Virus record (IMG/VR): IMGVR_UViG_3300026877_000048
Coordinates: 1-46,333 of that record
Direction: 5' to 3' (one strand)
Source of the DNA: a virus
DNA length: 46,333 nt
This document shows positions 2,023 through 44,828 of this stretch, piece by piece (within the stretch, counting starts at the first letter, position 1; every line of letters starts with the position of its first letter). A model generated the notes under the pieces. It made no database searches. It saw only the letters and a program-made list of their open reading frames with translations, and was not told where the DNA came from. A program made the translations under genes and the position numbers.

Positions 2023-3216
2023 CTAGGCCACCCGTGTCGTCACGACGGTGCCGCCGCTCGCCAGGGTCGCCGCGAGCCGGACCCGGGCGGCATCCAGGAC
2101 GCTGATCACGACCGCTGTGCTGGAGGTGTCGCCGAGGTCCGTCACATCCACACCCGTCTGCCCGTGGGCGAGGAGCCGACCGATGGCGAGATGGTGCGTG
2201 CGGTTGTGGAACCGCAGGCCGTCGCCGTTGCCATGGAGGATGACGCTGCCCAGCGTCATGTACCGGACATCGCTGTCGCAGAAGATCCCCGCGCCGCCGT
2301 TGCCGTGCGCGTAGACTTGCCCGATCTCCATGTGCTCGACCGGGTTCTGCGGCGTGCCGTTGCAGTACAGGCCATGGCTACCATTCGTGCTCACCCACAG
2401 GGTCCCCACGAAGAACTTGGCCGTGCCCCCGTAGAAATGCACCCCGTCGATCCCGCAGGAATCGGCGATCAAGGTGTCCCACCACTGTTCGATCATGCCG
2501 GCGGCTTGGACCTGGACCCCCGCGCGGGGCCACGCCAGCGCCGTGACCTGCCCCCACCGATTGCCCCCGACCGTGCCGAGGTGCTGGGCCGTGAACAGGA
2601 TCCCGTACCCGCTGACCAGCGTCTCCGACGGGGCCGTCGGGCCCGGCCCCCCCACAAAGACGCTGGCGAACCGGTTGTCGTGGACGTTGCACTGGCCGGC
2701 GGCTCCGTCCTCGATCACCATCCCATTGCGCCGACCGCCGACGACGTGGATCCGCCCGAAGTGACTCTCGTTAATGTCCCGGAGCGACACGCCCACGGCG
2801 ACCTGCGCCGTCTCTAGGCTGTCCACGACGCACCACCGGGACCCGCCGTCGAACACCACGGCCGGCTGGGTCTGGGTGAGGCCGGCGGGGTCCTCCACGC
2901 GCAGGCTGCCGAGCACGCGCCAATGGAGCACACCGAAGGCGTGGATCACAGCGGTGTCCGCGCGCGGCACGAACACCACCCCCGCCGGGAGGATCCAGGT
3001 CTGCCCCGACTGCGGCGTGAGCGGCGCACTGACCGCATACCGCCCGGGCGGCGCATAGATCAGCCCGCCCGGCCCCGCCGCCGCGATGGCCTGCGTCCAC
3101 GCGGCGGTGTCGTCGGTCGTCCCGTTGCCGACCGCGCCCAGCGCCTGCACATTGACCGCATCCGTGAGGGGGGTCGAATACGGGCCCGGGCCCGAGGGGA
3201 CCGGCGGCGTCGCCAT
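2023..3216 (-). CDS. Right-handed beta-helix protein (pectate-lyase-3-like), probable receptor-binding or spike
   Basis: 397 residues. The N-terminus carries VNVQALGAVGNGTTDDTAAW, the hallmark entry segment of phage tailspike and pectate-lyase-3 beta-helix proteins. The rest is a run of short beta strands with repeated G/N turns (HGNGGAGIFC, HGNGDGLRFH) typical of helix rungs. The ATG at 3214-3216 is set by AAGGAGG 8 bases upstream; an in-frame ATG 72 bases earlier lacks a site. No catalytic residues can be assigned. It probably binds or trims host surface glycans. It is the only spike-type protein of this fold here. Confidence 0.8.
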   Translation of the reverse strand: MATPPVPSGPGPYSTPLTDAVNVQALGAVGNGTTDDTAAWTQAIAAAGPGGLIYAPPGRYAVSAPLTPQSGQTWILPAGVVFVPRADTAVIHAFGVLHWRVLGSLRVEDPAGLTQTQPAVVFDGGSRWCVVDSLETAQVAVGVSLRDINESHFGRIHVVGGRRNGMVIEDGAAGQCNVHDNRFASVFVGGPGPTAPSETLVSGYGILFTAQHLGTVGGNRWGQVTALAWPRAGVQVQAAGMIEQWWDTLIADSCGIDGVHFYGGTAKFFVGTLWVSTNGSHGLYCNGTPQNPVEHMEIGQVYAHGNGGAGIFCDSDVRYMTLGSVILHGNGDGLRFHNRTHHLAIGRLLAHGQTGVDVTDLGDTSSTAVVISVLDAARVRLAATLASGGTVVTTRVA

Positions 3217-3294
3217 GGTGCTGGACCTCCTTCGCGCCCGCCAGGCGTGCCACGCGGCGCACAGCGGGCAAGATGCGGGCCCCGCCATGGGCCG

Positions 3295-3738
3295 TTAGGC
3301 GGCGGCGGGCCCCGGCGGCGGCGAGGGAGCCGGCGTGGTGTGGAACCCCAAGTGCTCCAGCGTCTCCTGGACGGCGTAGAACCCGTCCATGCCGAACCCG
3401 ACGAGATCGCACGCCTTGGCGGGCTGGCCCGTGGCGGTCGGCCGCTCATGCCGCAGGCATAACGTGACCGCGCCGTCCGCAAAGGTGACGTGGCCGACCG
3501 TCTGCCCGGTCGGGCCGGTAACCTGGAGCCGTTGGATCACCGGCGGGTCCGCCGTACTCCCCGGCGGGCCCGCGAGGCCCAGCCGCCGCTCCACGTCCTC
3601 CTGGAACCGGAGACCCACCGTGCGGACGCACTGCTGCTCGACGGCCGATAGTTCCGGGAACGGCAGACTCGCCCGGTCGGGACTCAGGCAGAAGGCCCGA
3701 CCGTAATCGGCTCCCGCGAGACTCAGTTCCTCCGGCAT
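3295..3738 (-). CDS. Virion-region protein, unknown
   Basis: 147 residues, not recognised. A mixed alpha/beta body includes VIQRLQVTGPTGQTVGHVTF, which looks like a beta hairpin, then an Ala/Pro-rich tail. GGGAGGG lies 7 bases before the ATG at 3736-3738. It sits between the beta-helix protein and a coiled-coil membrane protein in one leftward unit. Confidence 0.65.
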   Translation of the reverse strand: MPEELSLAGADYGRAFCLSPDRASLPFPELSAVEQQCVRTVGLRFQEDVERRLGLAGPPGSTADPPVIQRLQVTGPTGQTVGHVTFADGAVTLCLRHERPTATGQPAKACDLVGFGMDGFYAVQETLEHLGFHTTPAPSPPPGPAAA

Positions 3739-3755
3739 GCGGCATCCCTCCCGCG

Positions 3756-4019
3756 TCACCAACGAATCGCGTGCCCCAGCAAGGCCGCGACCACCGCTAC
3801 CAACGCCGTTACCACCACCACGGCCCCGCGCGGCCAGTCGGCCCCCCGCTGGGCCAGCTCCCGCCGGACGGCCTGGAGCTCATCCCGCAACCGCGCCATC
3901 TGCTCGCGCGTGTCCGTCACCGCCTGGGTCAAGGCCGCGACATGCCGGGTCAACTCCTGCACCGTCTCCCACAGCCAGCCGGAGGGGGGCGTGTCGTACC
4001 GGGGTTCGCGCGCATCCAC
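3756..4019 (-). CDS. Coiled-coil protein with C-terminal membrane anchor
   Basis: 87 residues. A heptad-like helix spans about residues 18-60 (TVQELTRHVAALTQAVTDTR), followed by a hydrophobic segment VVVVTALVAVVAALLGHAI at the extreme C-terminus. It resembles a tail-anchored protein such as a hemolysin-XhlA-like or virion membrane protein. The GTG start at 4017-4019 is only weakly supported, by GTGAGG. Confidence 0.65.
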   Translation of the reverse strand: MDAREPRYDTPPSGWLWETVQELTRHVAALTQAVTDTREQMARLRDELQAVRRELAQRGADWPRGAVVVVTALVAVVAALLGHAIRW

Positions 4020-4025
4020 CGGGCC

Positions 4026-4475
4026 TCACCCACGGTACGCCTGCGTGAGGGCCGCCGCCGTGCTCCGCGCGGGGATCACCAGGACGGTGCCGATCCGCAG
4101 GACGTTCGGGTTCGGGCCAATCGCGGCCTGATTGGCGAGGTAGATCCCCGGCCAATAGGCGGCCGTGCCGTAGAACCGCGCCGAGATCTGGCTGAGCGTG
4201 TCGCCCGGCTGGACGACATACGTGCTGGGGTTCGCCACCGTGGGCGTGCCCCCCGTGACCGTCTGGGGCGTCCCCGTCGCGCCTTGCGGCGTGTAGACGG
4301 TGCCCGGTGCCGAACCAGTGCCGGGAGTCGCGAGCGGTTGGGTCAACGGCGTGCCTGGGTTCGGAGCGAAATGGAACAGGGATCCTAGGGCCCAGGCTCC
4401 AAACACGACTGCCCCCAAGAAGAGCACGCCGTTCCGTCCTGTGCTGATTTGCACTCGGGTGGGGTGTGCCGCCAT
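4026..4475 (-). CDS. Membrane-anchored LysM protein
   Basis: 149 residues. An N-terminal membrane segment (about residues 15-32, VLFLGAVVFGAWALGSLF) is followed by a Pro/Thr/Gly linker and a C-terminal LysM domain (YVVQPGDTLSQISARFYG, then NPNVLRIGTVLVIP). LysM binds peptidoglycan. The layout suggests a protein held in a membrane with its wall-binding domain displayed. GGAGGG precedes the ATG by 7 bases, just after the stop of the metallopeptidase gene. Confidence 0.8.
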   Translation of the reverse strand: MAAHPTRVQISTGRNGVLFLGAVVFGAWALGSLFHFAPNPGTPLTQPLATPGTGSAPGTVYTPQGATGTPQTVTGGTPTVANPSTYVVQPGDTLSQISARFYGTAAYWPGIYLANQAAIGPNPNVLRIGTVLVIPARSTAAALTQAYRG

Positions 4476-4476
4476 C

Positions 4477-6123
4477 TTACATCCCTCCACCGCCCGTTTG
4501 GGGTACCGGGCATGTCTCGCAAACCACCATACCCTGCGTCAGGGCTTGGCTCAGCCATTGCGCCGCCCATCGCATGTTCGCGGCGTCGCCCGGCCCCCAC
4601 TGCTGTTCCAGTGCCGCCCAGTCAATCTGCCGGCTCCCGGCCGGGATGAGCTCGCCCTCCCGCGTCTCGATGGGCAAGCCCGCCAGGGTCATTGCCAAAA
4701 TCGTGGTGGCTTCCGCCTGCTGCTCCTGGCGGGTGTGATCCGCCGGGGGCGCGGGCAGGCAGGTCCGGTCATGCAGGAGCGCATGCGCCCCTTCATGGAC
4801 CAGCGTCTGGACGGCGTAGCTGTCCCGGCTGAGCGCCGCCGGCGCGAGCAGGATACTCTCGTTGTCCGGCGTGTACTGCCCCTCCAGGATGTAGTCGGGA
4901 GTCGCCTGCAACGCCCGGTAGCGAATCCGCACCCCACACCCCTGGAGGGCCGCCGCGAGGCGGTCATACGCGGCTGGCACGTCGGGCGGCACCGTGATCG
5001 CCGCGACCTCGGCGGCGGTCGGCTGCCGAATCCACCAGGGGTGCCGGGCCGGGTCCACCGCGACGGTCTGGCGCGGCGGCGGCGGGGCTGTGGGCGTCCA
5101 CACACCGAAGCTCGTCGGGGTCCGCTGCCGGACGGCTTCCGCATAGGCGGTGGCCCATTGGCGGATCGCGTCGGCGGCGGCCTCGACCTGCGCCGGCGTG
5201 GTCGCCGCCTTCACCTGGGCGAGCAACGCCTGCCCCTGCGGCGCGAAACGGTCCAGAATCGCCCGATCCCCGGCGGGCGACCGGGCAATCTTCTCCGGCG
5301 TCCAGTCGTAGTCATACAGGGCTTGCAACTCTTCCTGCACGAACCGCAGCCGGTCGGCCACCTGGGGATCGTGCACCGGCACCCCCTGGCGCACGAGCTC
5401 GGCCGCTTTGTCGGCGACCGCCGCCACGCCCGCGAGGTGGGCGTTCCCGCAGGGCAGGCAGCCCGTGTCCCGCTCCATGTCCGGCGCGTATTGGGAATAG
5501 GGCGGTGGGGTCGGGCCGGACGGGGCCGGCGTCGCCGGCGGGGCCGCCGGGGCCGGGGCCAGGACGGCCGTTTGCAAGCCCGCCGCCGCCGCCCCCAAGG
5601 CCGCCGCGGCCGCCTCCAGATCCGCCACCGACGCGACGGGGTTCACGGCCGCCTGCCGCGCCCGCCGCAGGTGGGGCAATGCCGCCCGCCACCGGGCCTG
5701 CTCGGCCGGGGGGAGGTCCGCCAGGCGCTCCGGGGCCAGGTCAAAGCGTTCCAGCGCGGGCAAACCCTGCCCCCACTGCTGGACATCCCGCAGGCGCTGT
5801 TGGACCTCCGGGTGCGCCAGCCCGTCCTCCCGCGCGAACCGCAGGGCCTCTTTGAGGCTCGCGCTCATGCGGACCACCTGATCCCGGACGGCCGCGACCG
5901 AGGGCGGGGCCCCGGCGTCCGCTGGGCCCGATCCGGCCGCCCCCCCCGCCCCAGCCCGCCAATCGATCTGTTGGGTCAACGTCTCCCGGAGCCGGCGCAT
6001 CTCCGTCGCCAATTCCTGATAGCCCGCCGCCTGCTGCTGGGGGCCGGGACTCAGGAGGCGCACCAGGTGCGGCAACACCTGCGGATGCGTCGCATAGCGG
6101 AGCGCGTCATCCACAAAGCCCAT
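4477..6123 (-). CDS. Large protein with a zinc metallopeptidase domain
   Basis: 548 residues. The first half is mostly helical with Ala/Pro linkers and a short C-LPCG pair. The C-terminal third carries YAVQTLVHEGAHALLHDR with HExxH at about residues 443-447, followed by a Gln/Glu stretch (RQEQQAEATT) that may supply the third zinc ligand, as in ImmA/IrrE- or ArdC-type gluzincins. It lies between the lytic transglycosylase and the LysM protein, so a virion-carried protease, for entry or maturation, is plausible. It could also be injected to cut a host factor. Confidence 0.75.
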   Translation of the reverse strand: MGFVDDALRYATHPQVLPHLVRLLSPGPQQQAAGYQELATEMRRLRETLTQQIDWRAGAGGAAGSGPADAGAPPSVAAVRDQVVRMSASLKEALRFAREDGLAHPEVQQRLRDVQQWGQGLPALERFDLAPERLADLPPAEQARWRAALPHLRRARQAAVNPVASVADLEAAAAALGAAAAGLQTAVLAPAPAAPPATPAPSGPTPPPYSQYAPDMERDTGCLPCGNAHLAGVAAVADKAAELVRQGVPVHDPQVADRLRFVQEELQALYDYDWTPEKIARSPAGDRAILDRFAPQGQALLAQVKAATTPAQVEAAADAIRQWATAYAEAVRQRTPTSFGVWTPTAPPPPRQTVAVDPARHPWWIRQPTAAEVAAITVPPDVPAAYDRLAAALQGCGVRIRYRALQATPDYILEGQYTPDNESILLAPAALSRDSYAVQTLVHEGAHALLHDRTCLPAPPADHTRQEQQAEATTILAMTLAGLPIETREGELIPAGSRQIDWAALEQQWGPGDAANMRWAAQWLSQALTQGMVVCETCPVPQTGGGGM

Positions 6124-26716: not shown

Positions 26717-27291
26717 GCCGGGGCCTCCCGGTCGAGGGCCCGGCGCAGCACGTCCGCCAGCGCCTGGGGGCCGGGATCCCCCGCCCGGCTCCCGGCGGCC
26801 AACGCCCCGTCGCGCAGGTCCACGGGCAGCCGGCGGGCCCGATCTGCCTCCGTGACGTGGGCACTGTAGTACCGCGCGAACTGGCCCCGGAGCACGTCGG
26901 GGTCGCCCAGGCAGATCGCCTCCCACCCCAGGGCCTCGGCGACGGCCCGCACCGGGGGATCCAGGCTCGCCAGCGCCGCGTCGGGCTGGTAGTAGCCGTA
27001 CCGCCGCACGGCGGCCTGCACCTGCGCCCACGCGGCCTCCACGCTGGGCTGATGGGGCGCGGTGAGTTGGGCCGCCGCCGCCCGAATCGCGCCCGGCGTC
27101 GGCCACCACGCCCCCGTCTGCTCCATCAGCACCCGCCGCACTGCCGCTTGGGCGAGATCGGCGGGCACATCCCCCAGCAGGTCGGTCCAGACCGCGACCA
27201 TGCGCGAGAGCTGCGGCTCCGGCGGCACCGTCAGCCCTGGCAGCGCGGTCACGCAGAACGCGATTAAGGCGCGTACCTCACGGTGGGTCAT
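26713..27291 (-). CDS. Replicative helicase loader (G39P-like)
   Basis: 192 residues. The N-terminal 110 residues are helical with VWTDLLGDVPADLAQAAVRR and a Pro-rich turn (AWWPTPGAIRAAAAQL), the usual pattern of the SPP1 G39P-type loader and inhibitor family found after replication initiators in Firmicutes phages. ATG at 27289-27291 with GAGGAGGG 8 bases upstream overlaps the initiator gene stop. It likely recruits the host DnaB/DnaC-type helicase, since no phage helicase is encoded here. Confidence 0.7.
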   Translation of the reverse strand: MTHREVRALIAFCVTALPGLTVPPEPQLSRMVAVWTDLLGDVPADLAQAAVRRVLMEQTGAWWPTPGAIRAAAAQLTAPHQPSVEAAWAQVQAAVRRYGYYQPDAALASLDPPVRAVAEALGWEAICLGDPDVLRGQFARYYSAHVTEADRARRLPVDLRDGALAAGSRAGDPGPQALADVLRRALDREAPA

Positions 27292-28333
27292 CCGTCCGTC
27301 CCTCCTCGTCGGTCGGTGGGGTCGCGGTCGGCGGCGGCCCCCGGTCGGCGTGCAACAGGGCCTCCACCGCCGCTCCGCCGGCCAGCCAGTCGTGGCGCGG
27401 ACGGCCGTTGGGCCGGTCGCGCGGCAGGGGGGCTCCTTGGCTCGCCCGCCACTCGCCGAAACTGCGCCACCATAGGTCCGGCTCATGGCGGCGCCGGACC
27501 CAGTATGGGTGGTCGCGTGCCCAGGTCCACCAGTCCGCCAGACTCGTGACGTCCCGCCCCGCCTGGATCCACCTCGTGAGGATCCCGCCCGCCACCAAGT
27601 GCCAGTCGCGGGGTAACGGGATCCCCTGCGCCGTCAGTTCGTCGCGCCAAGTCTTTACGAGGGCGCGGATCGCCGGGTCGAGGCGTCGCGGGGCTTGGCG
27701 TGGTTGAGGAGCCGGCGCCGCCGCGTCGGTTGGCCGATGGGGTGCCGCCCCCGCCGCGTCAGCGGGGGTGAGGCCGTTTGCGTTAGCAAACGGGAGGGGG
27801 GGATCCTCCGAAGGAGAAGGGGAGGGAGAAGGCGAAGGTGCAGGTGAAGGTGAAGGCGAAGGTGAGGCGCGCAGTTGCGCGTCATCGCGCTCAGGTACGC
27901 GCAGGTGCGCGTCATCGCGCGCATCCTCGCGCGACCCCGCGCGACTGGTGGGCCCGGCCATGGCACTGGTGGGCGGCGCGGGATACTTCGACCGGTCGCG
28001 GTCTCGTTTCTCGGCCCGGATATGCGTCTGATACGCGAACCACTTGTCCTTCGGGATCGCGATGTAGTCGCGACCATCCGGGCCTTGGTAGAGCAGAATG
28101 AGACCGACTTGGGCATACAGTTGCAGGGCCGCGCGAATCTCGTCGTCGCTAAAGGCGAACGCCGAAAAGACTTGGCGTCGGATCCGGCTCGGTGAGGCGG
28201 ACGCGCGGCCCCAATCATCGAAGTAGGTCAGGAGCCACGGCCACATCAGGGCAGCTGTGGGATTCTCCTGCGCGACCCGATCCAGGTTTTCGTCGAAACT
28301 GATGTCCGAGCTAATGAAGACTTTGCGCGCCAT
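27278..28333 (-). CDS. Replication initiator / DnaD-like replisome organiser
   Basis: 351 residues from ATG at 28331-28333 (GGGAGG about 11 bases upstream). The N-terminal winged-helix-type region (KVFISSDISFDENLDRVAQE; SDDEIRAALQLYAQVGLILL) resembles phage replication initiators. A Ser/Pro-repeat linker (about residues 165-190), encoded by a GAAGGT-like purine repeat on the other strand, separates it from a C-terminal domain rich in Trp (WWTWARDHPYW) like DnaD/DnaB-interacting modules. The NNNGG array lies directly upstream. It probably binds an origin nearby. Confidence 0.7.
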   Translation of the reverse strand: MARKVFISSDISFDENLDRVAQENPTAALMWPWLLTYFDDWGRASASPSRIRRQVFSAFAFSDDEIRAALQLYAQVGLILLYQGPDGRDYIAIPKDKWFAYQTHIRAEKRDRDRSKYPAPPTSAMAGPTSRAGSREDARDDAHLRVPERDDAQLRASPSPSPSPAPSPSPSPSPSEDPPLPFANANGLTPADAAGAAPHRPTDAAAPAPQPRQAPRRLDPAIRALVKTWRDELTAQGIPLPRDWHLVAGGILTRWIQAGRDVTSLADWWTWARDHPYWVRRRHEPDLWWRSFGEWRASQGAPLPRDRPNGRPRHDWLAGGAAVEALLHADRGPPPTATPPTDEEGRTDDPP

Positions 28334-28390: not shown

Positions 28391-29600
28391 CCAGGGGTGG
28401 GGCGGGCAGGGCTAGGCGGGTCGGGCTTGGATCGGCCCGGTCTGGCATGGCAAGTCGCGCTCGGCAGGGGGTGGGCGGGTCCGGGCAGGGCCGTCGGGCG
28501 AGGGGTGGCGGGGGCTGGGACGGCCAGTCGGGCCTGGGCGGGCGGGCATAGGCCAGGAATGTCGGGCGTGGCAAGGGGTGGCGAGGACTGGCGGGGCGAG
28601 GAGCGTCGTGTCGGCCGGGGACGGCCGGGGACGGGCTGGGAAGTCGGGCGCGGCGTGGCTGGGTGCGGCCTGGCCTGGGGCGGCGAGGGCGGGCTTGGGG
28701 AGTCGGGCGCGTCGGGCTGGCACGGAGTGGGCGGGGGTGGCGGGTCGGACCGGGCTGGATCGGGATGGAGAGTCGGACGGGCCAGGCTCGGGCAGGGCAG
28801 GGGAGTCGGTCACGGCCAGGCCGGGACGGGTCAGGTGCGGCTTGTCGGGCACGGCAAGGAGTGGGCTGGAAGGGATGGTCGGGCACGGGGCGGACGGGTC
28901 AGGAACGGATTGGTTCGTCGGGCGCGGCTTGGGACGGCGCGGCCGGGCTTGGCGGGGCACGGCTTGGTCGGTCGGGTCCGGTAAGGCCCGGGGTGGTCAG
29001 GTAGGGATGGTCGGACGCGGCTAGGGCCGGAGGGGACAGGGAGGTCGGGCAGGGGCAGGAAAGGTGAGGCACGTCGGGCAAGGGCGGGGGGGGGCGGGAT
29101 TGTCGGGGGACGGCTTGGTCGGTCGGATCCGGCAAGGCCCGGGGTGGACGGGGTGGTCGGGGCCGGAGCGGTATGGGGAGGCGAGGCAGGTCGGGCAAGG
29201 ATTGGGGCGGATTGAGGGGGAAGGGGCAGGGTGGTCGGGTAGGCCCGGAAGGGCGCGGTCTGGCCAGGCACGGATCGTCGGGCCTGGCGAGGCTGGGGCT
29301 GGTGAGGATGGTCGGGTCTAGCGGGGACGGGTGCGGAGAGGCAAGGACTGGTTTGTCGGGCCAGGACCGGCAAGGAACGGACGGGCAGGGCAACTCGGGG
29401 ACGGTGCGGGGCGGCTTGGGTCGTCGGGTAGGGAGCGGAGGGGCCTGGATAGGCCAGGATAGTCGGGCACGGGCGGGACAGGCACGCTGTGGGCGGTCGG
29501 GCTTGGATAGGCGTGGACGGGTCTGGCAAGGGTGGTCGGGGGCGGCTGGGGTCGGAAAGGATGGGTCGGTCGGAGGAAGGGCTAGCCGGAGTAACCGGCG
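28391..29600. repeat. NNNGG pentamer array (about 1.2 kb, non-coding)
   Basis: On the plus strand a GG dinucleotide falls at nearly every fifth base. The pentamers are grouped in blocks that start with TCGG (usually TCGGG) and end with one 4-base unit, so successive TCGG starts are mostly 29, 34, 39 or 44 bases apart (5n+4). Starts include 28421, 28455, 28494, 28528, 28562, 28806, 28845, 28879, 28918, 28972, 29011, 29045, 29074, 29123, 29157, 29191, 29235, 29278, 29312, 29356, 29395, 29424, 29463, 29497 and 29536. A few stretches (near 28611, 28712-28800 and 29235) slip the phase by one base. Block lengths are not multiples of 3, which argues against coding. The G-rich strand could form two-tetrad G-quadruplexes. 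It fills the gap upstream of the replication initiator. Confidence 0.9.
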
Positions 29601-29628
29601 TCGGGGGGGGCGGGGCGGGCGACGGGGG

Positions 29629-30336
29629 TTACCCGCCGACCCGCTCCCAGCGCGTGACCTCAAATGTGCCATAGCCCTGGGACCGGTCCGCGCCCAGGCC
29701 GTTGCGCTCGGCATGGATCCAGATGGTCCGCCACTGGTCCGGCCGGATGCAGTCTTGCCAGACCCACACTTCGCCGGTGATGGTGACGTCTTCGACGTAT
29801 TCCACGTAGGTCAGCGTGGACCGCTCCCCCTTCGGCCCGTAGACATGGCCGATCTTTTGGAGCCGGCCATCCGGCTCCTGGCGGCCGAGATACAGGCGGT
29901 CGGGGGCCACGAACACCCGTTCCGCCACAAAGGCGCGGGCGGCCTTCTTGGTCGGGCCCCAGCGTTCGCCGGCAAACGCGATGTTCACCGACTCCTTGAT
30001 GAGCGCCTTGAGTTGGCGGCTCTCGATGTAGAGCCCCCGCTCGTCGCTCTTGAACCCGTTCGTCTTGGCCTGCCCGGCGATCTGCTTAATGGCGGCGTCG
30101 AAGAGCTCCGGGGCGACGTTGATGTCCACCCCGGGGTCATACCCCAGATCGATGAGCGTTTCGCGCACCATCTCCCGGATCTCTTGGTCGTTGGTGACGC
30201 CGGTGGTCTTGCGGAGCCAGCCTTCAATCACCCGGGGGTCTTTGGGCACGCCGCCCATCAGCCGGCCGGGGACATGGAGCGTGAAGGCATAGACGGTGTA
30301 GAGGTCGCGGGCGTGGTCGGCGAAGATGCTGCTCAT
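29629..30336 (-). CDS. Conserved phage protein with RAMP-like Gly-rich loop
   Basis: 235 residues from ATG at 30334-30336 (AAGGAGG 8 bases upstream). The start YTVYAFTLHVPGRLMGGVPK, the middle RGLYIESRQLKALIKESVNI, then KGERSTLTYVEYVEDVTI and the end ERNGLGADRSQGYGTFEV match a phage family I recall but whose function I do not know. The last segment resembles the G-rich loop of CRISPR RAMP/ferredoxin-fold RNA-binding proteins. There are no other cas genes. It could be an RNA- or DNA-binding protein. It lies just upstream of the pentamer array. Confidence 0.6.
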   Translation of the reverse strand: MSSIFADHARDLYTVYAFTLHVPGRLMGGVPKDPRVIEGWLRKTTGVTNDQEIREMVRETLIDLGYDPGVDINVAPELFDAAIKQIAGQAKTNGFKSDERGLYIESRQLKALIKESVNIAFAGERWGPTKKAARAFVAERVFVAPDRLYLGRQEPDGRLQKIGHVYGPKGERSTLTYVEYVEDVTITGEVWVWQDCIRPDQWRTIWIHAERNGLGADRSQGYGTFEVTRWERVGG

Positions 30337-30376: not shown

Positions 30377-30991
30377 TTAGCCCTCCGCGCCCCCGACCTG
30401 GAACGCCTGTGCTTCCGCCTCGCGGTACAGGCGGGTGAGGTCGGCGGGCGAGAGGTGATCATGGACGACCGCCCGGTCGTGGGGGAGTTTCCCGAGCACC
30501 GACCGCAGGAAGAGCACTTCCCGCGTGTTGGTCCGCACGTTGGTCAAGTAGACCTGGATGGCCGCTTTGAGATCGGCCGCGAGCGCGTCCAGGAGCGGCA
30601 CGCGCCGGCCGGGGGCGACCGGCACCCGGTAGTGGTGCCACTCGACAGGGATCATGCCGGTCGGGTCCGGCCACCGCACCGCCCGGCGCACGGCGTGCCG
30701 GGCCGCGTGCAAGAGCCGGGTGTATTCGGCCCGGGCCATCGCCCGCACCACGCCGGGCAGTTCCTCGTCCCGGAAGCCGGGGATGGCCCACAGGTGCTCC
30801 GTCACGCGGTCGAGGAAAGTCTCTTCGTCGAGGTCCGGGTAGCGGTCATAGAAGGCCGCCACCGCCCGCCGGATGGTGCGGGTGGCCCGCCGGGCCGACG
30901 GGATCTGGATGGTCTCATACGGCGCGTCCCCCGTCGGGCCGGGCCGGGTTCGGTCGTCCGGGGGCGGGGGGGTCTGTCGCTGACGTGCCAT
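30377..30991 (-). CDS. Early-region helical protein, unknown
   Basis: 204 residues. A Pro/Arg-rich N-terminus is followed by a helical body with many Arg, Asp and Glu (RRAVAAFYDRYPDLDEETFL; AADLKAAIQVYLTNVRTNTR). AGAAGGAGG precedes the ATG. It is likely co-expressed with the RAMP-like gene. Composition would allow DNA binding; no family recognised. Confidence 0.6.
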   Translation of the reverse strand: MARQRQTPPPPDDRTRPGPTGDAPYETIQIPSARRATRTIRRAVAAFYDRYPDLDEETFLDRVTEHLWAIPGFRDEELPGVVRAMARAEYTRLLHAARHAVRRAVRWPDPTGMIPVEWHHYRVPVAPGRRVPLLDALAADLKAAIQVYLTNVRTNTREVLFLRSVLGKLPHDRAVVHDHLSPADLTRLYREAEAQAFQVGGAEG

Positions 30992-33007: not shown

Positions 33008-33120
33008 CCCGGCCGCCCGCCACGTTGCACAACATCAGTGTGAGCGGACGCCATGCCAGCCCGGACCGCGGGCCAGTGCGGGTGGCCGGGGCTCAAGGGC
33101 ACGTCGTAGACCTCAGGCAC
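33004..33120 (-). CDS. Possible 38-residue protein
   Basis: A GTG at 33118-33120 overlaps the end of recT, with GGTGAGG just upstream. It encodes EVYDVPLSPGHPHWPAVRAG and a short tail, and ends in GTGA with the next small frame. Plausible part of the early operon; unknown. Confidence 0.4.
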   Translation of the reverse strand: MPEVYDVPLSPGHPHWPAVRAGMASAHTDVVQRGGRPG

Positions 33121-34252
33121 GGGCCTCACCGCCTTCCGCCGCCTCGGCCCGCTGCCGCGCGGCCCAGGTCTTCCGGAGCGCGGTCAGGGCCTGCTTCGCC
33201 TCCTCCGGCGTCCAGGTCCGGGGATCGGCACCGCCCCGCGCGACCCCCAGGGCCGCCTTGGCGATATAGGCGGCACTCTGCTCGCCCAACTGGGCCCGGA
33301 GGGCCTGGTACTCTGGCCACCACGGCGGCTCCGCCGGGGCTTCGGGCCCTGCGGGCCCGGCGTCCGCTGCCGGGGCCACCGGGGGCACGGCGGCGGGGGC
33401 CTCCGGGGCCGCCTCGGGTGCGGCCTCGGGTGCCGGAGCGGGCACGGCCACCCCAGGCGGCTCGGCGGTCGGGGCCAGGGCCTGCCACGCCCGCTGCGCG
33501 GTCTCGTCGCCGTACTCGCGGGCTTCTTCCTCACCGATTGCGACGGCGGCTTCCCAGGCGAGCGGCAGGCGCTTCGCCAGCCGCCGCAGGACGGTCTTAC
33601 GGGCCATTTCCACGTAGTCCGTCACCCAGGGGCCGCTGTCCTTAGCGCGGCTTCGGGCGCGGATCGCGTCCACCTCCGCGCGGGTCATGACCTCGATGTC
33701 CCACGTCTCCTGATCCCACGCGGCGAGGGCGTAAAACAGGTGCGGCTCGCCCTGCCGGGCTGCGAATGCCGGCCGGTGCGTCACCTGTGGCCGGCTCCCC
33801 AAATCGACCTCGAACACATCCTGCGGCCAGACCGGGTGGGCCGCGACTAGGCGGATGCTACTACCCCGCCGGATGAGTTCCAGCAGGCCCCGATAGCCGA
33901 TCACCGCCTGCGCCTCATAGACTTTCCGCTGGCTGTTCCAGAAGGGGATGAGGTACACGTGCCCCAGCGGTCCGGGCATGAGACCCAATCCGGCACAATA
34001 ATGCAGACTGCTGATGAGGGATTCGGGCGAACATTCAGCCAGTTTGGGCGTCGTGCGGAGGCTCGACACCATGACGGCGATCAACCGCTCCGGGGTGATG
34101 GTGCGCGGCAGCACGGCCGCAATGCGGTCCCGCTCCGCCAGGAGCAGGTCGGCCACGGTCCGCCCCCGGCTGCCCGCCGCCTGGGTCGCCGCCGCCCGCG
34201 TCTGCAACTGCTGCGCCAGAGCCTGGGTTTGGGCCTGCGTGCCTCGTGCCAT
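33113..34252 (-). CDS. recT: RecT-family single-strand annealing protein
   Basis: 379 residues from ATG at 34250-34252, set by GAAGGAGGG. The RecT core (about residues 25-240) is clear: LLLAERDRIAAVLPRTITPE, PESLISSLHYCAGLGLMPGP, VYLIPFWNSQRKVYEAQAVI and YVEMARKTVLRRLAKRLPL. A long Ala/Pro/Glu linker and a small helical C-terminus follow, longer than typical RecT (about 270 residues). With the YqaJ exonuclease directly upstream it forms a Red-type recombination pair for repair, recombination or circularisation. Confidence 0.9.
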   Translation of the reverse strand: MARGTQAQTQALAQQLQTRAAATQAAGSRGRTVADLLLAERDRIAAVLPRTITPERLIAVMVSSLRTTPKLAECSPESLISSLHYCAGLGLMPGPLGHVYLIPFWNSQRKVYEAQAVIGYRGLLELIRRGSSIRLVAAHPVWPQDVFEVDLGSRPQVTHRPAFAARQGEPHLFYALAAWDQETWDIEVMTRAEVDAIRARSRAKDSGPWVTDYVEMARKTVLRRLAKRLPLAWEAAVAIGEEEAREYGDETAQRAWQALAPTAEPPGVAVPAPAPEAAPEAAPEAPAAVPPVAPAADAGPAGPEAPAEPPWWPEYQALRAQLGEQSAAYIAKAALGVARGGADPRTWTPEEAKQALTALRKTWAARQRAEAAEGGEARA

Positions 34253-34254
34253 GG

Positions 34255-35223
34255 TTACGGTCCCTCCTTCGCGGCCCGCATGGGGCCGACCCACAGCCAC
34301 GGCCGCGTCGTCACGGGCCGGGTGTACTGCTCGGCGAGGTCCGGGTGGTCCCGGCGCAGGGCCTCCGCGTCCAGGGTCCGGCGGGTCTGGGTCCGCCACG
34401 TCGCGATGCGCTGACCGCGATACACGATGGTCTCGGCGTCCTGGGCCAGCGCCTGGAGCTCCGCCACGCACTGCTGCATCACGGCCTCCGCCGCGTCGCG
34501 CTGCGCCCGCGCCGTGGTGTACCGGCGCAGGATGGCGCTGCCCAGGTCCTCCGGCACGTCGTACACTAGGCCCGGCGTGTGGGTCGGGTAGAGCCGCCGC
34601 AGGGCCTCCCACGTCGCGGGGTGATCATCCACCGGCGGCGGCGTCTGGGGGACGACAAACTGCTCCCAGAACGTGGTCTCTAAGGCGATTAGGTGCTCAA
34701 TCAATTGCGGATCCCGTTCCACCCGCCGCCAGACGAGCCGCTGCCCGCCGATGAGCGCCGCGACATAGGCATGCGACGCGCCCGTGATGGCGAGGTAGTG
34801 GTGGACCTGGACCAGATACGGCTCCGGCACGCGGTCGTCCGCCCACTCCCCGGCATGCCGCTCGCCCGTGGTCTTGCACTCCAGGATCACGGGCCGACCT
34901 TCGCCCAGGACCCACCGGTCGATATGACCCGCGATGTACGGGTACTGCGGGTGCGTGAGCCGGGCCGTCGTGCGGCGGACCTTTTTGCCGGCCCGCTGGG
35001 CAAATTCCTTAGCGATGAGGTCTTCCAATAGTTGCCCCCACCGGGCCGCCTCACTGGGGGGGTCCGCCGCGATGGGCAGTTGGCCGGTCTTTTGCAACCA
35101 GACCGTGTAGGCGCTCTTGTAGGGATCCACGCCCGCAATCGCCGGCGCGTCGGATCCGCCGATGTATTGGGTCCGATCTTGCCTCGACTCCGCCATACTG
35201 GCTACACTGTCCTTAGCAGTCAT
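34255..35223 (-). CDS. YqaJ-type lambda-exonuclease-family nuclease
   Basis: 322 residues from ATG at 35221-35223 (GCAGGAGG upstream). YIGGSDAPAIAGVDPYKSAY at the N-terminus, EAARWGQLLEDLIAKEFAQR, then AGHIDRWVLGEGRPVILECK contain the Asp and ExK residues of the PD-(D/E)XK active site, and LVQVHHYLAITGASHAYVAA is the usual following Q-x-H-Y motif. It ends 2 bases before recT. It would resect double-strand ends to feed RecT. Confidence 0.9.
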   Translation of the reverse strand: MTAKDSVASMAESRQDRTQYIGGSDAPAIAGVDPYKSAYTVWLQKTGQLPIAADPPSEAARWGQLLEDLIAKEFAQRAGKKVRRTTARLTHPQYPYIAGHIDRWVLGEGRPVILECKTTGERHAGEWADDRVPEPYLVQVHHYLAITGASHAYVAALIGGQRLVWRRVERDPQLIEHLIALETTFWEQFVVPQTPPPVDDHPATWEALRRLYPTHTPGLVYDVPEDLGSAILRRYTTARAQRDAAEAVMQQCVAELQALAQDAETIVYRGQRIATWRTQTRRTLDAEALRRDHPDLAEQYTRPVTTRPWLWVGPMRAAKEGP

Positions 35224-35288
35224 GTGGCTGTACCTCCTGCCGATCTGACTGCGGACCCCGCCGCGCGAGCCCCGGCGGGGTCGCTGTG

Positions 35289-35489
35289 CTACGTGCCGGG
35301 GCCGTAGTAGAGCACCCGCCACGGGCCTTGCCGCCACAGTCCCCCGGCGGGGTGCCAGACCGGCAGGGTCCCGACGTAGCCACACCGCCCGCAGCGGATG
35401 TCCAACCATTCCTCAACCCCGTTCCGTTGATACTGCACCTGGATCGCCGGGGCCCCGCACTTGGGGCAGGTGTCGCGGGCCCTATCCAT
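35289..35489 (-). CDS. Small zinc-ribbon protein
   Basis: 66 residues. DTCPKCGAPAIQVQYQ and IRCGRCGYVG give a classic two-knuckle zinc ribbon, followed by a Trp-rich end. GGAAGGGGG precedes the ATG. It overlaps the AbrB-like gene stop by 8 bases, which suggests linked expression. Confidence 0.65.
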   Translation of the reverse strand: MDRARDTCPKCGAPAIQVQYQRNGVEEWLDIRCGRCGYVGTLPVWHPAGGLWRQGPWRVLYYGPGT

Positions 35490-43934: not shown

Positions 43935-44828
43935 CTATCCCCCCTTGCGCCACCTCTCGGCTAACACCAGGCCGCTCCCCTGCCCCGGCAGCACATGCAG
44001 GTACTCGCCCGTCGTGTCCAGCCGGGCATGCCCCAGCGTCTGCTGCACCACATGCAACGGCACGCCGGCCGCAATCGCGTGCGTCGCGTGCGCGTGCCGG
44101 AGCCAGTGCGGGCTGACGCGCTTGCCCAGCCCCGCCCGCTCCGCCGCCCGGCGGACGATCTGCCACCCCCGGGCCGCCGAAAACGGCCAGATGGGGGCCT
44201 CCGGCCCGTCCCCCTGCCGCCACCGGCGGAGGTCCCCCATGAGGCCCGCCGGGAGCCGGATTTCCCGCTGCTTCCGCCCCTTCCCCACCACCCGGAGGAT
44301 CCCCTCCCCCTGCTCGGCCGGGAAGAGGTCGCCCCAGCGCACGCTCACCGCCTCACTGATCCGACACCCCGTCAAGTACAGGAACCGGAGGAACAGCGCG
44401 TTCCGGCCCGACCCCGCCGCCGCAATGAGGCGGTCCACCTCCGCCTCCGTCAGCCGCCGCTCTAGGCGCCGGTCGGGCGGGGGCGCGAGCCGCAGGGCGT
44501 GCCAAGGGTTCTGGCGGACCCAGCCCTGGGCCTGCCAGTACCCCCACAGCGCGGCCAGGGCCCGCACCGTGAGATCCACGGTGGCCGCACTGTACCCCGC
44601 CTGCTCCAACGCCCGGACGCAGGCCCGGGCGTCGTCCGGGGTCAGGGCGGGGTCGAGGGCGGGATAGGCCCGCTGCGCCCGCTGCCAGGCTTGGACGTAG
44701 GTCCGCCGGGTCTTCCCCGTATGCTGCATGAGCCACGCATTGACCGCTGCGTCGAGCACCCGGAGGCGCTGGGCCTCCCCCGACGCCGGGATGAGGCCCG
44801 GTGGTGGCGTCCTATTGCGGCCCGCCAT
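43935..44828 (-). CDS. XerC/D-like tyrosine recombinase
   Basis: 297 residues. SAM-like domain (about 20-110), then the catalytic set: Arg near 156 (LTGCRISEAVSVRW), HWLRHAHATHAIA near 241-253, LGHARLDTT and nucleophile Tyr near 276 (GEYLHVLP). It lacks the AP2 arm-binding domain of the integrase at 38600 and is the size of Xer enzymes, so dimer resolution or integration at dif-like sites is possible. GGAGGAGGGG precedes the ATG. Palindromes lie just past its stop. Confidence 0.85.
   Translation of the reverse strand: MAGRNRTPPPGLIPASGEAQRLRVLDAAVNAWLMQHTGKTRRTYVQAWQRAQRAYPALDPALTPDDARACVRALEQAGYSAATVDLTVRALAALWGYWQAQGWVRQNPWHALRLAPPPDRRLERRLTEAEVDRLIAAAGSGRNALFLRFLYLTGCRISEAVSVRWGDLFPAEQGEGILRVVGKGRKQREIRLPAGLMGDLRRWRQGDGPEAPIWPFSAARGWQIVRRAAERAGLGKRVSPHWLRHAHATHAIAAGVPLHVVQQTLGHARLDTTGEYLHVLPGQGSGLVLAERWRKGG

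Follow-up and report, generated by a model that had tools for sequence, protein, structure and literature searches.

VIPR (Viral Interference Programmable Repeat) is known from one preprint, posted in April 2026, which reports it from Escherichia phage SUSP1 and a Pseudomonas fulva prophage (PMC13142463). According to that preprint, a phage RAMP protein, Vipr (about 20 kDa, with a G-loop), works with YNNGG-repeat RNAs whose NN positions pair with DNA while one base is skipped, and phages appear to use the system to identify genes of their competitors, vipr among them, and to silence these (PMC13142463). The pentamers are described as intergenic and tandem, with a fixed GGY and a hypervariable NN or a related consensus (PMC13142463). 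The same source gives accessory genes vap1-6 and guide RNAs with a structured 3′ tail, lists hammerhead-interspersed arrays as a further type, and mentions "staggered arrays with overlapping vrRNAs" among the systems (PMC13142463).

We describe a 1.2-kb element in a 46,333-bp viral record (the window, meaning the whole stretch of DNA analysed) that is, in our judgement, very probably the guide array of a VIPR system. An earlier note on this DNA, whose author knew of no described element of this kind, has been overtaken by the preprint (PMC13142463). Like the published systems, the window family is phage-borne and combines one small RAMP protein and a small accessory gene with non-coding tandem pentamers, in which two bases are fixed and the others vary freely; guides from relatives of the window also match DNA with one base skipped, in competing phages and at targets that include vipr. 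The window differs from the published arrays in being one continuous 1.2-kb array whose short blocks are split by CGAC and in which separate 3′ tails were not recognised. Its array carries CC on the vipr strand, whereas the presumed vipr locus of SUSP1, which we located in the public record, is GG-sense, with GGTNN arrays on the vipr-sense strand. The main text of the preprint does not make GG on that strand a defining feature (PMC13142463). Because the Y position of the YNNGG consensus is unconserved in the window, its array fits VIPR only under the "related consensus" wording.

The window protein also has in common with the Cas7-type backbone of class 1 CRISPR-Cas (Csm3, Cmr4 and type VII Cas7) a RAMP fold and a glycine-rich loop. 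Backbone proteins of the Cas7 type interrupt the pairing of the guide at each sixth base. Unlike class 1 CRISPR-Cas, the window has no conserved 20-40-bp repeats, its guide positions are not contiguous, and no cas genes were recognised among the window genes searched. The family adds 72 viral loci and Microcystis phage Mae-JY09, with a very regular and easily searched grammar. Coming from other phages, it independently supports a proposition for which the preprint has so far been the sole source, namely that RAMP proteins which predate CRISPR read DNA by a gapped code blind to the wobble base (PMC13142463).

Periodicity and block grammar of the array

The earlier note had reported GG at every fifth base of the plus strand for about 1.2 kb, with block starts 29, 34, 39 or 44 bases apart, and both observations held. 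Across 28391-29600, the region it had named, plus-strand GG autocorrelation was 1.80 times expectation at lag 5 (1.64 and 1.47 at lags 10 and 15), compared with a lag-5 maximum of 1.24 in 500 Markov shuffles. Further peaks (1.6 to 1.8) fell at lags 29, 34, 39 and 44, and the distance from one TCGG to the next was mostly 5n+4. Dynamic programming resolved the minus strand into 221 NNNCC pentamers and 30 exact CGAC tetramers and left just three bases unparsed, so that a 5n+4 block is n pentamers plus one CGAC. The description of blocks that begin with TCGG and end with a 4-base unit was thus right in its 5n+4 structure, but the two elements together are a single tetramer, GTCG on the plus strand and CGAC on the minus strand. 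Our best estimate of the array limits is 28395-29622 on the minus strand, where (NNNCC)n blocks are split by CGAC, equivalent to GTCG(GGNNN)n on the plus strand. There are about 30 blocks, most of them with 5-8 pentamers and the longest with 11 (28647..28701, minus strand; read bases TC AA CG TC GC AG AG GC CA AC GC).

Entropy at minus-strand pentamer positions 1 to 5 was 1.98, 1.98, 1.88, 0.53 and 0.23 bits, so that positions 1 and 2 are almost random; spacing is conserved while the bases between are free, as had been proposed. The array lacks identical 20-40 bp direct repeats, its only recurring unit being the 4-base CGAC. The grammar and the parse rule out a CRISPR array, a minisatellite and a coding sequence, in agreement with the earlier reading.

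No structured 3′ tail was recognised between the array blocks. A scan of 16 loci against Rfam at the gathering score returned only tRNAs, with nothing credible in the window and no hammerhead ribozyme match between guides. CGAC might be the only handle of each guide RNA, in place of a 3′ tail. A short hairpin, GCCGG-TTACT-CCGGC (29578..29604, no strand assigned), lies at the end of the array nearest to vipr and is a possible processing or terminator element. Two stretches of the array, 28972-29010 and 29123-29156, are diverged duplicates of a pair of guides that share their read bases and differ at the third base, a pattern that would suit the targeting of variant forms of a single gene.

The vipr-like gene and related loci

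The array, itself non-coding, is flanked on both sides by minus-strand genes. It starts 6 bases past the stop of a vipr-like gene (29629..30336, minus strand) whose 235-aa product carries a RAMP-type glycine-rich loop, GLGADRSQGYGTF, near its C-terminus. Directly upstream of vipr, on the same strand, is a vap-like accessory gene of 204 aa (30377..30991, minus strand), and the two genes and the array are co-directional. Among about 45 distinct related loci, the vap-like gene lies on the vipr strand and upstream of vipr in nearly all.

Pfam gave no gathering-level match for the vipr-like protein. An AlphaFold model built with 56 homologues (pLDDT 92, pTM 0.83) was compared with known structures by Foldseek, which returned Csm3, Cmr, type VII Cas7 and Cas7-11 chains with a best E of 3.7e-8; of the 50 PDB matches listed, all were Cas7, Csm, Cmr or Cas7-11 save one labelled merely "a bacterial protein". 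Residues invariant across the 56 homologues include G213, G215, A216, R218 and G223 of the G-loop. By its predicted fold, then, the protein folds as a Cas7/Csm3-type RAMP. Alignment by hhalign with the presumed SUSP1 Vipr, whose gene we took from the public record by its size, G-loop and adjacent arrays, gave a weak match (E 0.002, probability 13%). A first search found eight viral relatives and a profile search extended these to 72 viral loci; a search of bacterial genome contigs found none. The locus L077 has two RAMP-like genes side by side (3168-3743 and 3980-4642), one with a SUSP1-Vipr-like G-loop (GIGRWRPR) and flanked by GGC-type arrays, the other of the window's type.

We searched the relatives with a local parser for NNN[C/A]C pentamers and CGAC, which found essentially no arrays in shuffled sequence. 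The array grammar recurs on the vipr-sense strand in 47 of the 63 distinct viral loci, upstream of vipr in 27 and downstream in 20. An opposite-strand array was found in three loci, and L064 carries both orientations. The 47-to-3 bias holds whether the array is upstream or downstream of vipr. Upstream arrays often take up nearly the whole gap between vap and vipr and leave only narrow margins: the array of L030 covers about 3467-3978, between the end of vap at 3461 and the start of vipr at 3998, and L028, L043 and L050 are similar. Given the fixed orientation and the filling of this gap, the simplest reading is that vap, vipr and array would be co-transcribed, and the guide RNA would then carry CC. 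A VIPR array transcribed instead from the plus strand as GGNNN, antisense to vipr, would differ from this reading in strand only; it would leave the published GG motif as it is, and plus-strand NNNGG is close to YNNGG. We think this the less likely of the two, since the orientation is the same on either side of vipr and the filled vap-vipr gap leaves little non-coding room for a divergent promoter.

The loci also bear on the roles that had first been proposed for the element, among them a replication origin, a G-quadruplex site or a protein-wrapping site serving the neighbouring initiator. A DnaD-like replication gene (27278..28333, minus strand, co-directional) does adjoin the array, about 60 bp beyond it, and weakly matches the phage replication initiation family phrog_1408 (E 7e-7); the plus strand is G-rich, and GG doublets with 3-base loops could stack. 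The array nevertheless goes with the RAMP gene that flanks its other end, as seen at 47 of 63 loci, while a search for viral relatives of the initiator found none. In the AT-richer relatives L021 and L024, moreover, CGAC, the 5-base grammar and the terminal C are kept while the first C has mostly become A, so that the GG/CC doublet is mostly lost. Blocks of relatives also match genes of other phages under the pairing rule. Together these observations make an element acting at the DNA level highly improbable.

The loss of the doublet speaks equally against a decoy, in which many NGG motifs or RNA-binding sites would soak up a nuclease or an RNA-binding protein of the host. NGG sites are indeed numerous on one strand, but the variable bases have almost the highest possible entropy and those of relatives match rival genes, and we give a decoy next to no credence. 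The G-quadruplex and NGG-PAM ideas are accordingly very unlikely, and we carry forward the reading of the array as a set of VIPR guides.

In Microcystis phage Mae-JY09 (PP395641, 37174-38910), vap-like and vipr genes, both annotated only as hypothetical protein, are followed by a CGAC array. This array ends with a perfect inverted repeat, GAACTTCCCCCTGCGCAGGGGGAAGTTC.

Guide matches under the one-base-skip rule

The pairing rule of the preprint, two read bases and then one skipped target base (PMC13142463), was applied to 114 guide blocks of the vipr family, which we scanned over 2.7 Mb of DNA from related phages after masking the arrays. Skipping one base gave three 18/18 matches, and shuffled guides gave none. 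Skips of 0, 2 and 3 produced no 18/18 match outside arrays and no excess over shuffles; exact matches at skip 3 were nearly all self-matches of arrays or candidate blocks, and the only other one was a 14-base match at chance level. The target evidence comes from 2 of the 114 guides, both from relatives.

The first guide, from L020, matched the vipr gene of L036 at 18/18, across the codons for LAERVFVDE, and its own vipr at 14/18 (4 mismatches). About a dozen places matched it with two mismatches, several of them other vipr genes. The pairing does not extend into the codons beyond the CGAC on either side, and we therefore took one block as one guide. A second, 10-pentamer L020 guide gave no match when searched for a target. 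The other matching guide, from L042, met the terminase Walker-A motif VRGPHGLGK at 18/18 in two phages and at 17/18 in a third; these three terminases, so identified by phrog_2, differ at wobble bases.

The skipped base was the codon wobble position in all of the L020 and L042 guide matches. We also considered three read bases per pentamer and rejected this, as the third pentamer base agreed with the skipped target base in only 1/8 cases for the L020 match and 4/8 for the L042 match; the third base does not follow the skipped base and is apparently not read. These matches suggest what such guides aim at, namely the Walker-A motif of terminase and a rival's vipr gene, with the wobble base ignored.

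Among the window's own guides, the 11-pentamer block (28647..28701) and the 10-pentamer block had no exact match in viral contigs. Two 8-pentamer guides had 4 and 11 viral matches, roughly the chance expectation, and with two or more mismatches allowed, matches of window guides in related phages were likewise at chance level. Two of the 11 matches fall in the coding frame of a phage ParB-methylase gene, at the motif LGRAENLL (L249:1706-1728 and L255:3775-3797), a motif that was not seen in two homologues checked. ParB-methylase is a suggestive candidate target of this guide, at the chance level of the scan.

Proposed mechanism and neighbouring genes

We propose that vap, vipr and the array would act as a co-directional operon. 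The array RNA would be cut into, or used as, about 30 guides, each of them one CGAC-to-CGAC block of 5-11 pentamers. A Cas7-like Vipr would coat this RNA and hold the fixed CC of each pentamer (GG if the other strand is transcribed), leaving the two most variable bases to pair with double-stranded DNA while the target skips one base per step. Because one target base is skipped at each step, such a guide would read codon positions 1 and 2 and ignore the wobble base. The likely outcome would be the silencing of genes of rival phages. In this scheme, RNA binding, transcriptional silencing and a role in phage conflict would be as the preprint describes for VIPR (PMC13142463).

It is possible, and we put it forward tentatively, that the window represents a separate VIPR type, with a vipr-sense (NNNCC)n guide RNA, a C-based doublet, CGAC as one-word punctuation and each block serving as a separate guide with 10-22 informative bases. 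A sense-strand CC together with the CGAC punctuation may be what defines such a type. This raises the question of how one system can have CC as its fixed doublet on the vipr strand when another has GG there.

We do not think that the DnaD-like gene is part of the VIPR system. Within it, at 27809-27932, are GAAGG-type hexamer and 12-mer repeats together with a 30-bp repeat. Elsewhere the window encodes a RecT annealing protein (33113-34612), a YqaJ exonuclease (34255-35409) and a tyrosine integrase (43935-44828), and from these genes the phage is probably temperate and has a recombination pair.
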